DNA of 58,969 nt from Candidatus Bathyarchaeota archaeon (GTDB taxonomy: Archaea; Thermoproteota; Bathyarchaeia; Bathyarchaeales; Bathycorpusculaceae), in the NCBI GenBank assembly GCA_029881805.1, contig JAOULW010000012.1, positions 1 to 58,969 of the forward strand, read 5' to 3'. The notes under the pieces are model-generated. The model was not told the DNA's origin. It did no database searches and saw only the letters and a list, made by a program, of their open reading frames with translations. Position 1 is the first letter of the stretch, and each line of letters begins with the position of its first letter. A program made the translations under genes and the position numbers. Below, in pieces: positions 3,976 through 42,063 of the stretch.

Positions 3976-5073
3976 GTGGCGCACTGTTTGGTCATGACCT
4001 TGGAGAAAGCTGCTAGCATCGCAATTCGCTCTTTGACTCCCAATAGGCCCTATCATGTGCAGTGGATGCTTACAAGAAGATGCAATTACAATTGTAAAGG
4101 ATGCGATGTTTGGCAGGAACAAGACGGAAGGGAATTATCATCATGGGAAATCAAGAGAGGTTTAGACGTCCTTAGGGAATTAGGCGCGATTGAAGTAGTC
4201 CTATCTGGGGGAAATCCACTCCTAAGAGATGATATTGACGAGATTATCGAATACGCTTCCCGTTCATTCATTACTACTATTTACGACAATGGCAGTATGG
4301 CCGTGGAGAAAATCGATGCTTTACGAAATGCGGATTTTGTTGCAATCTCTATAGACAGTCTAGATCCGGCAAGAAATGACCATATCAAAGGCGTTAAAGG
4401 CGCCTGGAAAAAAGCCATGCAAGCGGTTGAAAAGTTGCATGACGAAGGAATTTCCGTAACCGTCTCGCCAACAATTTCTCAACTCAACCTATACGAGATT
4501 GCCGATTTCACCAGATTCTTCTTGCAAAAGGGTATTCCACTTTGGTATTGCTTATATTCCTATGATTCTTCTGAGGACCTTGGTCAAATTTTCAGAATCG
4601 GAAAAGAAAATGACGAATTCATAATAACTGACCGAGAGGCAATGGTTAAACTCTGTGACTTTCTCATTGAGATGAGAAGAAAAAACGGGAATATTTTCAT
4701 GACAACAAGAATACTGAAAGCCATCAAAGATCTTTACCTAAGAGATGCAAGAACGTGGAAATGCCGGGCGCTCCAAAACTTCTTCATGGTAGATCATCTA
4801 GGCAGAGTTGCTGGGTGCCATCTCCATAGCTCGGTAGCGTCAATCTTTGATCTGCGTCATGCTTGGCACAGCAAGAAGTTTAATTCACTACGCAAGATCT
4901 ACAGTGATTGCACTCAGTGCACATACCTTTGCTACATTTTCTACTCCATTCATGGGAGCGTATTCGGCAACATCAAAATAGCGCAAGAGCAGTGGAAAAG
5001 CGCGAAGCTTTTTCTAAGGAGAGACAAAACTAAGCCTGCAAACTTGACAAGCCCAGTCCTGAAATCATACTGA
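3976..5073 (+). CDS. Radical SAM protein with SPASM-like C-terminus
   Basis: 365 aa from a GTG; a start at the ATG (3994) would drop six residues. The radical SAM cluster motif CNYNCKGC (C36, C40, C43) lies in a TRRCNYNCKGCDVW context, followed by the GGNPLL glycine motif and the SIDSLDP strand motif of the barrel. The C-terminus carries further cysteines (WKCRALQNF, VAGCHLH, CTQCTYLC) consistent with one auxiliary iron-sulfur cluster, as in twitch/SPASM enzymes. These modify peptides, lipids or cofactors. The neighbours on the opposite strand are a glycosyltransferase and a methyltransferase, so a role in lipid or glycan tailoring is possible but not shown. Confidence 0.82.
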   Translation: MAHCLVMTLEKAASIAIRSLTPNRPYHVQWMLTRRCNYNCKGCDVWQEQDGRELSSWEIKRGLDVLRELGAIEVVLSGGNPLLRDDIDEIIEYASRSFITTIYDNGSMAVEKIDALRNADFVAISIDSLDPARNDHIKGVKGAWKKAMQAVEKLHDEGISVTVSPTISQLNLYEIADFTRFFLQKGIPLWYCLYSYDSSEDLGQIFRIGKENDEFIITDREAMVKLCDFLIEMRRKNGNIFMTTRILKAIKDLYLRDARTWKCRALQNFFMVDHLGRVAGCHLHSSVASIFDLRHAWHSKKFNSLRKIYSDCTQCTYLCYIFYSIHGSVFGNIKIAQEQWKSAKLFLRRDKTKPANLTSPVLKSY

Positions 5074-35408: not shown

Positions 35409-36356
35409 ATGAGAATTCGATTCGCTGTCCACATACCTGCACAGTTCGGATTCGACTATGAGCATGCTAAGAGAGTCGCACTCATAGCGGAGGAACTTAG
35501 CTATGATCTAGTCACCATTGGAGATCACCTTTTTCTAGATGAGCAATCACAAGACCGCAACTGCATGGAGGCTTGGACACTAGCAAGTGCCTTGGCTGTA
35601 GTGACATCCAAAATAAGGATTGGAACGCTTGTCACTTGCAATTCATTCAGACACCCGGGAATACTGGCTAAAATCGCTGCAACGGTTGACAACATTTCGC
35701 ATGGACGTACTCTATTTGGAATAGGAGCCGGGTGGAAGAAGCTTGAATATGACGCCTATGGGATTCCATTTCCGCCAGTGAGTGAACGGATGGATCAGCT
35801 AGAAGAAGCAATTCAGATTGTTAAATTGCTCTGGACGAAACCTAAAACGACCTTTATTGGCAATCACTACAGGATCAAGGATGCACTTTGTGCACCGAAA
35901 CCTATTCAGAAACCTCATCCGCCAATACTCGTGGGTGGACATGGAAAGAAGAGAACACTGAAGATAGTTGCGAAGCATGCAGACATGTGCAACATGAATT
36001 TCGAAGTCGGACCTGAACTTGACGAGCTGTTGGAGACGTTGAAAGGACATTGTGATGCAGTGGGGCGAAATTATAATGATATTGAAAAGTCCTTCTTTGC
36101 GTATTGCTACATCACAGAAAATGAGGAAGAGGCTGAATCTCATTTAATCGATGTGGCGAAACGTAGTGGGCGAACTGTAAGCGAGTTGAAAACTGATATG
36201 CCAGGAATCTGGGTCGGCACTCCGGAAACGGTCAGGGATCGTTGTCAGAACCTAATATCTAAAGGTTTCACGAGCTTTCAAATAAGATTCCTATTCGGCA
36301 AAGAATGCGAAATGAGCGAGTTGTTTGCCAGACAAGTCATTCCTGAGCTATCGTAG
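35409..36356 (+). CDS. LLM-class F420-dependent oxidoreductase
   Basis: 315 aa, luciferase-like TIM barrel. The N-terminus MRIRFAVHIPAQFGFDYEHA, SKIRIGTLVTCNSFRHPGILAK, the GRTLFGIGAGWKKLEYDAYG segment and the later PHPPILVGGHGKKRTL are the standard landmarks of bacterial luciferase-like, F420-using enzymes. It should transfer hydride between reduced F420 and an unknown substrate in the cytosol. RBS AGGAG is 9 nt before the ATG. No F420 biosynthesis gene is in the window; FMN-based members of the same fold cannot be excluded. Confidence 0.85.
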   Translation: MRIRFAVHIPAQFGFDYEHAKRVALIAEELSYDLVTIGDHLFLDEQSQDRNCMEAWTLASALAVVTSKIRIGTLVTCNSFRHPGILAKIAATVDNISHGRTLFGIGAGWKKLEYDAYGIPFPPVSERMDQLEEAIQIVKLLWTKPKTTFIGNHYRIKDALCAPKPIQKPHPPILVGGHGKKRTLKIVAKHADMCNMNFEVGPELDELLETLKGHCDAVGRNYNDIEKSFFAYCYITENEEEAESHLIDVAKRSGRTVSELKTDMPGIWVGTPETVRDRCQNLISKGFTSFQIRFLFGKECEMSELFARQVIPELS

Positions 36357-36379: not shown

Positions 36380-36469
36380 TTAAGCACTACAACAGCTTTG
36401 ACTCTCTTTTTGCTCACTATTGCAGCAACTTGAAGCTTCCTCTTTTCTTGTTTTTTTCTTTTCCTCCAT
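36380..36469 (-). CDS. 29-residue peptide with two Cys-Cys pairs
   Basis: A short gene downstream of arsM. It has one of the best ribosome-binding sites in the window (AGGAGGTGA, 4 nt before the ATG). The product is a charged N-terminal half (MEEKKKTRKEEA) followed by a Ser/Cys-rich half with SSCCNSEQ and SQSCCSA, giving four cysteines as two vicinal pairs. It lacks a signal peptide. It is the last gene of the nitroreductase-protease-ArsM operon, 49 nt after arsM. Possible roles: a thiol-based carrier of As(III) or another soft metal, a metallothionein-like peptide, or a peptide substrate for the neighbours. All roles are inference; the strong RBS and clean stop support real translation. Confidence 0.62.
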   Translation of the reverse strand: MEEKKKTRKEEASSCCNSEQKESQSCCSA

Positions 36470-36518
36470 TATTTCACCTCCTAGCACATTTGCCGAAAAT
36501 TCATTAGGTTTGCATATC

Positions 36519-37250
36519 CTACGTTTTGAACCCTTGAACTTGTACGCTCGCGATTTTCGCATATGAACAGCAATCACCCGAGGTTCTTTCGGAGACAATT
36601 GTGACGTTTTTGAAACCTGCTCTTTCTATAAGTGTCAAATATTGACCTTTCTCGAGCGCGCCTGCGACACATCCTGCCCATGCTTCGAGGCTTTCCTTGA
36701 CCTCTTTGGGTAATTCTCCCTCTGTCACTATATCTGAAATCATGATTCGTCCGCCAGGCTTGAGAACCCTGCAAGCCTCTCGGAACACTTTTTCTTTGTC
36801 TGGAGCTAAATTGATTACACAGTTGCTAATTACGACGTCTATGGAGTCATCTTCGATTGGAAGATCTTCTATCTCTCCAAGTCTAAACTCCACACTCTCG
36901 TAGCCATGCTTCAGTGTCATCTCTCTCGCCTTTTTAACCATCTCTTCAGTCATGTCGACTCCGATAACCTTCCCTTTGGACCCGACTCTTTTTGCGGCCA
37001 TGAAGACGTCAATTCCGCCACCTGAACCTAAATCAAGAACTGTTTCTCCTTCCTTCAAGCTTGCTAACGCCACAGGATTCCCGCAACCCAGACCCATGTT
37101 AGAGGTTTCGGGAACGTTTCTCAAGTCTTCCTCAGAATATCCGATGTCGAGCGCCCTGTCCGCAGATGGCGGTTTACAGCAGGATGTCGCTTCCCTAGCG
37201 ATTTCGCCATACCTTCTTCGTACATAATTTTTGATCTCTTCATGTTTCAT
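36519..37250 (-). CDS. arsM: Arsenite S-adenosylmethyltransferase (ArsM) homologue
   Basis: 243 aa from the ATG at 37250 (AGGAGGTGA 7 nt upstream; a GTG two codons earlier overlaps the preceding stop). SAM motif I is [16 protein letters not shown]. ArsM-type cysteines are present: SCCKPP (C24, C25), GLGCGNP (C56), [12 protein letters not shown] (C144) and WAGCVAGAL (C194), plus another pair GDCCSYAK (C227, C228). It would methylate trivalent arsenic, or a related thiophilic element, using SAM. Two bases separate it from the tandem protease gene, so the two are co-translated. Other members of this family methylate different substrates, so arsenic itself is unproven. Confidence 0.82.
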
Positions 37251-37252
37251 TT

Positions 37253-38092
37253 TCACTTCACCTCCTTGACGTTGTCATCAACTTTCGACGCATCTTCTTT
37301 CTCGAAAGACATTTCCCGTTTAGGATAATTGATGGTAACTCGGTAGTCTTTCATGAAAGTATAGCCCAACACCCCATCAAGAGGTGCTCCAACTGCGTCA
37401 CAAAGCAGCTGCAAGTCTTGCACCCCAACTTCAACATCACTAGACTTAGCTTTGCCCACTTGAATAGACTTGACTTTCGACAGAACCATGGTCGTACCAG
37501 CGAAAAACCCGCTGAGAGCTTTCTTTTCGCCACATATATTTCCGTGCAGACCAAAGGTCTGTCCGATCTGCTCTGTCATAACTGTTTTTGTTGCGCCGGT
37601 GTCTACTAAGAAGTTGAAAGGCCCTTTTCCATTAAGTTCGGTTTCAACGACAATGAAGTTCGCTTTACTAACTAGCCTAAATTTTGTAGGCAATCTACGT
37701 TCTTGTCTTGACTCTTCGAAAAGTATCTCCATTTGCGGATAGTCGATAACTACTTCGTAGTCCTTCATAAACGGTGAACCGATTATACCATCCAGCAGAG
37801 TACCTGTCTCTTCGGACAGCTTTGAAAGGTCTCCAAGAGCAATTGGAACTTGTCTCTTGCCTATCCCGCCGACTTGTATGGAAGCGACAGCTAGCATTTT
37901 CGATGAGTAACAACCGCTTGTTGTGGAGTTCGAAGTCTGAGATATTCCCAAAACTTCAGTGGCTTCCCGGCCAACAACTGTCACACTTGAGCCTGTGTCT
38001 ACAACGAATTTGAATGGACCTTTGTTGTTCAGTCTTGTCTCAACGACGACCAATGGGGCTTTATCAGCAAATTCAAACCTCATGCATAACAT
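37253..38092 (-). CDS. Tandem retropepsin-like aspartic protease, single chain
   Basis: 279 aa made of two similar halves. Each has a retropepsin signature: [13 protein letters not shown] with D32TGS, and [13 protein letters not shown] with D164TGA. Each half closes with a near-duplicate segment, [20 protein letters not shown] and [20 protein letters not shown]. Retropepsins normally work as homodimers with one DTG per chain; here both are in one polypeptide, as in pepsin but by a separate duplication. No signal peptide is seen, so it acts in the cytosol. It lies between the nitroreductase gene (23 nt upstream) and arsM (2 nt downstream). Substrate unknown; the 29-aa operon peptide is a candidate. 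Confidence 0.8.
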
Positions 38093-38115: not shown

Positions 38116-38691
38116 CTAGTCGAGTTCCAGCCTTTTTCCGTATGTTTCAGCAAAGCAGATTTCTTCGAGGGGTTTCCTTGGTTTGGGCTGTGGGGTTTCA
38201 TCTGGAATTCCTATTGCCACGAGGACGACAATATCAATGTAGTCTGGTATTTTCAGGGTTTTCCTGACTTCTTCTACCCATAATTTTGGTCTTGACTCGT
38301 AGTTTGCAATCCAGCACGTCCCATAACCCAAAGCAGTTGCTGCCAACACAATATGCTCAGTTGCTATCATGGGATCGTGTGTTGTCCATACAGACCGTCC
38401 GCAACATCCACCTCTGCCATCTCCGAGTACCACGACTATTGCATTGGCTTCAGAAATGAAACTTTGCGTTGAAGGCTTCGCGAGCAGTTCTTTGGTTTTC
38501 TTGTCTTCGACAATGATAAAGCGCCAAGGTTGGTTATTGCTCGCTGAGGGCGCAAGCCGAGCGGCGTCAAGTATTTTCTTCAGATGATGTCTTGGGATAT
38601 TATGCGCCTTATATTTACGTATGGCTCTCCTCTTTTCAATAATCTCAAATAAATCGTTTGTTAATGGGCTTTTTGCAGTGCTTCTTTTCAT
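38116..38691 (-). CDS. Nitroreductase-family flavoprotein
   Basis: 191 aa. FMN-binding start EIIEKRRAIRKYKAHNIP and LDAARLAPSASNNQPWRFI are standard; later GYGTCWIANYE contacts FMN. An unusual GDGRGGCCGRSVW places two adjacent cysteines (C96, C97) near the substrate side. Nitroreductases use NAD(P)H to reduce nitro groups, quinones or related electrophiles; here the context (ArsM, Cys-rich peptide) suggests an electrophile or metalloid substrate. GGTGA before the ATG is a good RBS. First gene of its operon; its promoter overlaps the palindrome at 38708-38727. Confidence 0.85.
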   Translation of the reverse strand: MKRSTAKSPLTNDLFEIIEKRRAIRKYKAHNIPRHHLKKILDAARLAPSASNNQPWRFIIVEDKKTKELLAKPSTQSFISEANAIVVVLGDGRGGCCGRSVWTTHDPMIATEHIVLAATALGYGTCWIANYESRPKLWVEEVRKTLKIPDYIDIVVLVAIGIPDETPQPKPRKPLEEICFAETYGKRLELD

Positions 38692-38707: not shown

Positions 38708-38727
38708 CTACTACCATTGAGTAGTAG
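38708..38727. promoter_or_regulatory. Palindromic operator in the TrmB/nitroreductase intergenic region
   Basis: CTACTAC, six spacer bases (CATTGA), then GTAGTAG: a perfect 7+7 inverted repeat. It lies next to the TATA at 38732-38739. A second copy of the left part (TCTCTAC[TC]AC, first at 38705-38714) is found at 38744-38753, so the TATA box is flanked by direct copies. For the nitroreductase operon the palindrome falls at the expected start site, fitting repression. Confidence 0.6.
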
Positions 38728-38731
38728 AATA

Positions 38732-38739
38732 GTTTATAA
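38732..38739. promoter_or_regulatory. Symmetric TATA box serving both divergent genes
   Basis: TTTATAAG contains the self-complementary TTATAA, so it can be read either way. Transcription would start near 38760 for the regulator (leader about 20 nt with GGAG) and near 38710 for the nitroreductase operon (leader about 20 nt with GGTGA). Confidence 0.5.
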
Positions 38740-38779: not shown

Positions 38780-39535
38780 TTGGAAAAAATAGATCCATCT
38801 GTGAAGGAAAATCTCATATCAGAATTCAAGACGTTGGGTCTTTCAGCTCTGGCATCCAAAGCATACTTGGCGCTATTATCAAAATCCAGTGCTTCTGCAA
38901 GTCTTCTCTGCAAAGAAACCGGAATACCTGACTCCAAGATATATTATGCCGTAAGTGAGCTTTCTAGAAAAGGAATGATAATTGTTCAAAATGGAACGCC
39001 AAACACCTACAAAGCTATCAATCCTAAAGAAGCCATAGGCAATTTGAAACAACAGTTATCTGAAAACCTCAGCAAGCAACTTAGCCGAGCAGATGACCTT
39101 GCAGTTTCTCTCTCACCAATCTTTGAGAGCGCCGAAGGCAAAGAGGAAATCGAATTAGCCTATGTAGTTCGCGGACAGAGAAACATATCCAGAAAGATGA
39201 AAGACCTAATAAACTCTGCCAAGAAGGATATTCTGCTTTTAATATCAGAAGAGGACCTCTGGGACTGGTTAAGTTCATCCCTAGCGAAAGTCGATGATAA
39301 TATCGAAGTCAAAATCGCCATCCCCCGAAAACTTCGGCAAAATAGATCTCTAAAAGGAAAGATACTAACCAAAATACTGGAATGTCCCGTTAATATTGTC
39401 ATTTCTGACATGAAAATGCTCATCACAGTGTCCAGCTGGGAAAATGAGGTTGCAATAATGACAAACGACAAGGCATTAATGAGTATGTCTATGGAATACT
39501 ATGAGAACCCAAAATGCTGCAGAAAAAGTGATTGA
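38780..39535 (+). CDS. TrmB-family transcriptional regulator
   Basis: 251 aa from a TTG (GGAG upstream). An N-terminal TrmB winged helix (LGLSALASKAYLALLSKS, then ETGIPDSKIYYAVSELSRKG) is followed by a coiled-coil and a C-terminal regulatory domain with AYVVRGQRNISRKMKDL. The sugar-binding extension of classical TrmB is absent, and the chain ends NPKCCRKSD, so a vicinal cysteine pair (C246, C247) lies at the tail. It is divergent from the nitroreductase-protease-arsM-peptide operon and probably binds the palindrome between them. A metal or thiol-reactive effector is a guess from the CC tail. Confidence 0.85.
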   Translation: MEKIDPSVKENLISEFKTLGLSALASKAYLALLSKSSASASLLCKETGIPDSKIYYAVSELSRKGMIIVQNGTPNTYKAINPKEAIGNLKQQLSENLSKQLSRADDLAVSLSPIFESAEGKEEIELAYVVRGQRNISRKMKDLINSAKKDILLLISEEDLWDWLSSSLAKVDDNIEVKIAIPRKLRQNRSLKGKILTKILECPVNIVISDMKMLITVSSWENEVAIMTNDKALMSMSMEYYENPKCCRKSD

Positions 39536-41332: not shown

Positions 41333-41607
41333 TTAGGACCCTGCAATAGGCACTTATAATTCTACGTTTTAGAACAGCCATTCAAAAAGGCTAGACCGTG
41401 CTATTTTTTGGGGATTTACGGAAGAACCATCGATTGAAACATGGGATATACTGAAGTCGATTCCATACATTTTTTTCTGCAAACTGCAACCGATAGGAGT
41501 GTTGCAGTAATTAATAGTGTCCAAACCGTTGAAGCAGTGTCCGTTATCATTCTCGATTATCAAACCTCGCAGATAGTTTAAATCTGTTGGCTACTCAATT
41601 AATTCCC
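41333..41607. other. Intergenic region, about 275 bp
   Basis: Holds the promoter of the next gene: AGTTTAAATC at about 41575-41585 lies 25-30 nt before the ATG at 41608. A 64-codon minus-strand frame is present but has no RBS or recognised family, so I do not call it. Confidence 0.35.
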
Positions 41608-42063
41608 ATGTCAAACAACAAAACAAAAGAAACCATTGTAAGCAAAGCCCTACACTACTTTAACGTTGACGGTTGGAACTGTGCTGAGTCCGTTTACATG
41701 GCTATTTTCCGAGAATACTACAGAATAGACGTGACACCAAAGACTGTTACTGCTTACGGCGGCGGCATCGCCAGAACAGGCAGCTTCTGCGGCGCAATAA
41801 ACGTCGCTATTATGGGCTTAAGCCAAAAATATGGTAGAGAAAACTCCCGCCAGCCCTTCATCCGCACGCAACGCCCAACGCTCGAGTTCCTGAACCAACT
41901 CATCGATCAATACGGCACATTAAACTGCAATCGCCTGAAACAGAGTCAACTAGCCAAACAGAAAGCAAAAACCACTAAAGAAGAAAACCTTTGCACGCCT
42001 CTCATAAGGAAAGTAATAGAGACATTCCTAACCATGGTAGAAAACAACAAACAAAACCTTTAA
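41608..42063 (+). CDS. C_GCAxxG_C_C family redox-like protein
   Basis: 151 aa from the ATG at 41608 (leaderless layout, see the upstream TATA). The family cysteine pattern is present: WNCAESVYMAIF, then GGGIARTGSFCGAINVAIMG, then LNCNRLKQ and a last ENLCTPLI. The cysteines and the CGA glycine motif identify the C_GCAxxG_C_C family, often found next to redox or metal-related genes; its function is unknown. A TTG 21 nt upstream would lie between the TATA and the ATG, so it is less likely. Confidence 0.75.
   Translation: MSNNKTKETIVSKALHYFNVDGWNCAESVYMAIFREYYRIDVTPKTVTAYGGGIARTGSFCGAINVAIMGLSQKYGRENSRQPFIRTQRPTLEFLNQLIDQYGTLNCNRLKQSQLAKQKAKTTKEENLCTPLIRKVIETFLTMVENNKQNL

Follow-up and report, generated by a model that had tools for sequence, protein, structure and literature searches.

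The window analysed here is a stretch of 58,969 nucleotides (59 kb) from a Candidatus Bathyarchaeota archaeon, in which a gene encoding a cysteine-containing micropeptide was found 49 nt downstream of arsM. The following genes and features make up the locus.

35409-36356, plus strand: luciferase-like monooxygenase, convergent, not found in related loci
36380..36469, minus strand: micropeptide gene, 29 aa MEEKKKTRKEEASSCCNSEQKESQSCCSA plus TAA (translation, homologues, codon selection)
36474..36482, minus strand: ribosome binding site AGGAGGTGA, 4 nt upstream of the micropeptide ATG; the 9-nt SD match is the same in front of all four homologues
36519..37256, minus strand: arsM, predicted arsenite methyltransferase, likely start ATG 37250 (NCBIfam PRK11873, PDB matches, alignment)
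37253..38092, minus strand: aspartyl-protease-like protein with two DTG domains (Pfam Asp_protease_2; in all four cassettes)
38116..38691, minus strand: nitroreductase-family protein with conserved CC (Pfam Nitroreductase; alignment)
38708..38727, no strand: operator-like inverted repeat CTACTACCATTGAGTAGTAG between the divergent units
38733..38739, plus strand: TATA-like TTTATAA ahead of the regulator gene; the four genomes share an A+T-rich TATAA box at this place
38780..39535, plus strand: TrmB-family regulator, divergent, with C-terminal NP(K/R)CC (Pfam TrmB, 58.6 bits; alignment)

The initial annotation placed an overlooked ORF of 29 amino acids at 36380-36469, with two CC pairs (SSCC and QSCC) and a near-perfect ribosome binding site 4 nt before its ATG. 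These coordinates are correct and the strand is minus: translation from 36469 to 36380 gave MEEKKKTRKEEASSCCNSEQKESQSCCSA, which starts with ATG, runs for 29 codons in all and is followed by TAA. Its four cysteines form the two pairs as described, the C-terminal end being CCSA, and the gap between AGGAGGTGA and the ATG is exactly 4 nt. AGGAGGTGA is the complement of the 16S rRNA 3' end in archaea. Three copies of this 9-mer are present in the window, against 0.38 expected by chance, and they precede the micropeptide ORF, arsM and an hsp20-like ORF, which are the only ORFs of at least 15 aa in the 59-kb window with the 9-nt SD match before them. Two CC pairs are found in 0.28% of the stop-free 29-codon stretches of the window. 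A 72-aa version of the product from an upstream TTG start is unlikely, because the similarity to relatives begins at the SD/ATG. The micropeptide gave no family match in Pfam, NCBIfam or PDB.

Reading downstream of the closest arsMs revealed the homologues MEEKKKIGKEETEKAKESQGCCGT in G088, the closest relative, and VDDKKIGKKAEKPGKQQSSCCDTEKKETSCC in G090, located 304 nt and 12 nt after arsM, respectively, each with the 9-nt SD. A query with a single peptide failed to reach the true homologues, whereas a profile built from three rows (the window, G088 and G090), with no arsM information in the search, recovered MSEEKVEKKVKQRSSCCDTERKSTSCC from G114 among 163 genomes of the order (E = 0.00135). 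This third homologue also has the 9-nt SD and is located 44 nt behind arsM. All four peptides are found behind arsM, are Lys/Glu-rich, 24–31 aa long and end in an (S/G)CC motif, and they span four genera and three families of Bathyarchaeia. A profile search of 257 genomes of the class gave no further homologue beside arsM, and a draw of 398 genomes from the phylum gave no strong further member as judged by profile score, with weaker matches at E 0.015–0.05; the family is known from four members only. Weak profile matches (E > 0.005) were dropped, those that were checked having no arsM nearby. In the neighbour scans downstream of arsM a single CC was the criterion, and L005 and L046, masked (N) at the relevant place, were counted neither way.

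The surroundings of the micropeptide gene vary somewhat. In G088 (L139), about 300 nt with an apparent gene remnant lie between arsM, which ends at 4470, and the micropeptide gene, which retains its own ribosome site and frame despite this separation. In G090 the micropeptide gene lies between arsM and a flavin-reductase-like gene (L140:3756-4316); such a gene also follows the arsM unit in G108 (L202:4749-5312), where it was assigned to Pfam Flavin_Reduct.

A dN/dS comparison with relatives had been named in the initial annotation as a check, and its outcome favours the reading frame. Over the ungapped codons of the window and G088, 9 of 10.1 synonymous sites were changed (pS 0.89) versus 6 of 52.9 nonsynonymous sites (pN 0.11; Fisher P = 1.9e-6), while the other two forward frames of the alignment had no bias. 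One reverse frame gave a weaker bias (P = 0.004), which we ascribe to the third codon positions showing through. The arsM pair, for comparison, gave pS 0.47 and pN 0.10. At both positions of the conserved CC the window and G088 use different, synonymous codons (TGT/TGC), and the sequence past the micropeptide stop codon is unlike between relatives. Judged by its codon pattern, the peptide is under purifying selection for its protein.

A chance ORF, or a non-coding conserved sequence, is extremely improbable. The ORF is very short and one relative is without the first CC, but the synonymous bias is in frame, the same SD precedes the ORF in four genomes, and the G114 homologue was found by the profile alone and lies behind arsM. 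The protein-level conservation in related genomes removes the doubt, and the micro-ORF is near certainly a genuine gene, too short for normal annotation. The proposed overlooked, translated micro-gene linked to arsM was expected to keep both its frame and its CC pairs in close relatives. The frame is not broken, since it is intact in all four genomes under purifying selection, and the C-terminal CC is invariant (4/4 peptides), forming the last residues in G090 and G114. The inner SSCC, in contrast, is present in three of the four and is absent from G088 via an in-frame difference. From this distribution, a single terminal dithiol preceded by a charged stretch seems to be what is essential; binding at two sites is not, given that G088 is without the inner CC.

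The micropeptide gene is the last of a cassette whose order is common to all four loci: a divergent TrmB gene, followed on the other side by nitroreductase, aspartyl-protease-like, arsM and micropeptide genes. The outer flanks differ among the four. Alignment revealed vicinal cysteines kept 4/4 at the C terminus of TrmB, NP(K/R)CC, in the nitroreductase, CC, and at the N terminus of ArsM, SCC. In G103 and G108, TrmB, nitroreductase and arsM genes are found without the protease or the micropeptide, and ArsM there is without the extra CC described below. The peptide is therefore accessory to the cassette, and the peptide and the ArsM C-terminal CC were probably gained by one branch. Since the members span three families, and the ArsM of the window (family f1) pairs with one of family f7 in the ArsM tree, the cassette may have been transferred horizontally in one piece. 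A gene for a putative redox protein of the C_GCAxxG_C_C family is located near the cassette (window 41587-42063).

The protease gene brings up a reading of the micropeptide as a precursor, in which the aspartyl-protease-like protein would cut off the Lys/Glu-rich leader and so free a small peptide with the CC, much as in RiPPs. Such processing would fit a leader that varies and a Cys core that is conserved, and the protease gene is present in 4/4 cassettes and absent from two peptide-less ones. However, no RiPP-typical modifying enzyme was recognised, and L043 combines arsM with a partial match to the protease but has no peptide. We regard this reading as quite improbable.

The product of 36519..37256 is, by family match, an arsenite methyltransferase (338 bits versus a cutoff of 263, NCBIfam PRK11873), and methylation of As(III) is predicted. 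Its cysteines are Cys26-27, Cys58, Cys145 and Cys195, with an extra CC at 228-229, and those of GLGCGNP, ISNCVIN and AGCVAGAL fall on cysteine positions when aligned to arsenite methyltransferases of solved structure (PDB). Cysteines 72, 174 and 224 of CmArsM bind arsenite (PMC5552862); their equivalents are kept in the window ArsM. The nearest named relatives of this ArsM are from Candidatus Bathyarchaeota, and viral contigs contained no ArsM relative. The four cassette ArsMs form one clade (support 88/93; 93% of bootstrap trees), and among about 80 distinct ArsMs compared they are the only ones with the extra CC near the C terminus. Common descent accounts for some of the co-occurrence of the peptide with this CC. 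A second arsM and an acr3 are found elsewhere in the window genome, which therefore has more than one way of dealing with arsenic.

A role as redox partner of ArsM has also been considered. The CC pairs would then act as reductant for the disulfide that arises in ArsM with every cycle, replacing thioredoxin or glutathione, and the nitroreductase could give the electrons. Such a role would suit CC pairs that adjoin an oxidoreductase gene in the cassette, yet no member has a CxxC. Disulfides between adjacent cysteines are strained, and in comparison with CxxC such pairs rarely serve as dithiol reductants. On balance this role is unlikely, though somewhat less so than the precursor reading.

CC-rich C-terminal tails were also found fused to other ArsMs, in L056 (GAGSCCATSCCGGKDLA) and in L085 and L087 (SSGGCCC, NSPQGCC). 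They resemble the micropeptide in having CC motifs that could serve ArsM and differ in being fused, whereas the peptide of the window is a separate gene product. These tails may be its equivalent, and a detached tail serving ArsM is therefore plausible.

Other small products were observed beside arsM elsewhere. A micropeptide family ending in AQCC(A/S)K(T/S)SK(V/I)ISGCHD is encoded directly after arsM in one Spirochaetia and one Bacillota genome (L081, about 36 nt; L086, about 14 nt); it had no NCBIfam match, and the L086 peptide was without a match in plasmids. A Dependentiae contig (L080:629-799) encodes, upstream of arsM, a Lys-rich peptide of 51 aa ending in LQSCCCCSKDKDNKKSCC. Small MazE/AbrB-like proteins with CC pairs, one of which was checked by Pfam, adjoin arsM in many archaea and bacteria (L012, L014, L018, L019, L024, L027, L028, L030, L046, L048, L050 and L088).

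The regulator has a TrmB winged-helix domain (Pfam, 58.6 versus a cutoff of 25.6 bits), and the operator-like repeat has the consensus CTACTAC-N6-GTAGTAG. CTACTACCATTGAGTAGTAG is matched, with at most one arm mismatch, in the four cassette genomes and in G103 and G108, and at no more than one mismatch it is a single site in the 2.2-Mb genome of the window. Distant TrmBs of the same type, 38–45% identical, have the repeat nearby in four further genomes. Counted by locus, it accompanies all six of the close TrmBs and four of the five distant TrmBs. The neighbours of the distant TrmBs include arsM and an AhpD-like gene (G023), an AhpD-like gene (G096), and hgcA with an arsA-family ATPase gene (G135, where HgcA scored 419.6 bits versus a cutoff of 275). 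TrmB-family regulators combining C-terminal Cys (CC in most) with the shared repeat were found in the window, L204, L205, L206 and L208. Repeat-linked TrmBs beside arsM, AhpD-like and hgcA/arsA genes thus support, by inference, a metalloid- or mercury-responsive regulator, and the TrmB-type regulators with the shared operator-like repeat are a candidate new family of metalloid/mercury sensors.

The location of a related TrmB-operator locus beside hgcA suggests that the wider system may see mercury. This, together with four thiols in 29 residues, is consistent with a metallothionein-like function, where the peptide would soak up As(III) or soft metals (Hg, Cd, Zn) without dealings with ArsM. 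The peptide shares with metallothioneins that it is short, Cys-containing and probably unstructured; it differs from them in its Cys content of 14% (4/29) and in having no Pfam or NCBIfam match. This content, with two Cys only in G088, is low for storage, and the tight linkage to one ArsM clade further argues against pure sequestration, which we consider rather unlikely but the most credible of the alternatives.

The reading that we prefer is that of a translated dithiol micro-gene ending a regulated metalloid-detoxification cassette, whose peptide binds As(III), either as a buffer or for delivery to ArsM; we hold the arguments for and against it to be about evenly balanced. As(III) entering the cell would bind the C-terminal CC of TrmB and relieve repression, upon which the cassette would be made. 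The micropeptide, Lys/Glu-rich and probably unstructured, would bind As(III) as thiolate at its one or two dithiol sites and buffer it or pass it to the ArsM cysteines, a hand-over which the extra C-terminal CC of ArsM could join. It would thereby take the role held elsewhere by glutathione or ArsD. The CC pairs of the cassette regulator, the nitroreductase and ArsM strengthen the case for As(III) binding by the peptide, which like the hand-over we infer from sequence.

Vicinal thiols bind As(III) in ArsD and in some ArsR proteins, and ArsD, which has vicinal Cys pairs, serves ArsAB pumps as their As(III) metallochaperone (PMC2440759). Like ArsD, the micropeptide is a small arsenic-operon protein with vicinal Cys pairs, SSCC and QSCC in the window and the last pair only in G088. 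ArsD is, however, about 120 aa long and serves the ArsA ATPase, whereas the peptides are 24–31 aa long, have no recognisable domain and are tied to ArsM. Another comparison is SaoC (NF040734), a selenoprotein that has a Cys-Cys-COOH or CU motif and a link to Hg/As resistance (PMC13188914). A terminal CC is likewise found in two of the four peptides, but the peptide of the window, with its CCSA end, had no NF040734 match. The titles and abstracts of open-licence papers on arsM and small peptides, Bathyarchaeota arsM, or TrmB and arsenite contain no description of the peptide. By these comparisons it would be a vicinal-thiol peptide of minimal size encoded in an arsenic operon.

More specifically, and only tentatively, the encoded dithiol peptide may carry As(III) to ArsM in archaea that presumably have no glutathione, under a new TrmB metalloid sensor (C-terminal CC, CTACTAC-N6-GTAGTAG) that stands beside hgcA and arsA-family genes in other Bathyarchaeia. 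If true, arsenic methylation would gain a class of peptides that has escaped annotation, and there would be a candidate explanation for how ArsM is supplied with As(III) in archaea without glutathione. An undescribed metalloid regulator of the TrmB type is also indicated by the cassette, and the combination of codon pattern and operon context can validate genes below 30 aa, even in uncultured archaea. Bathyarchaeia are abundant in anoxic sediment, which is a site of arsenic and mercury methylation.
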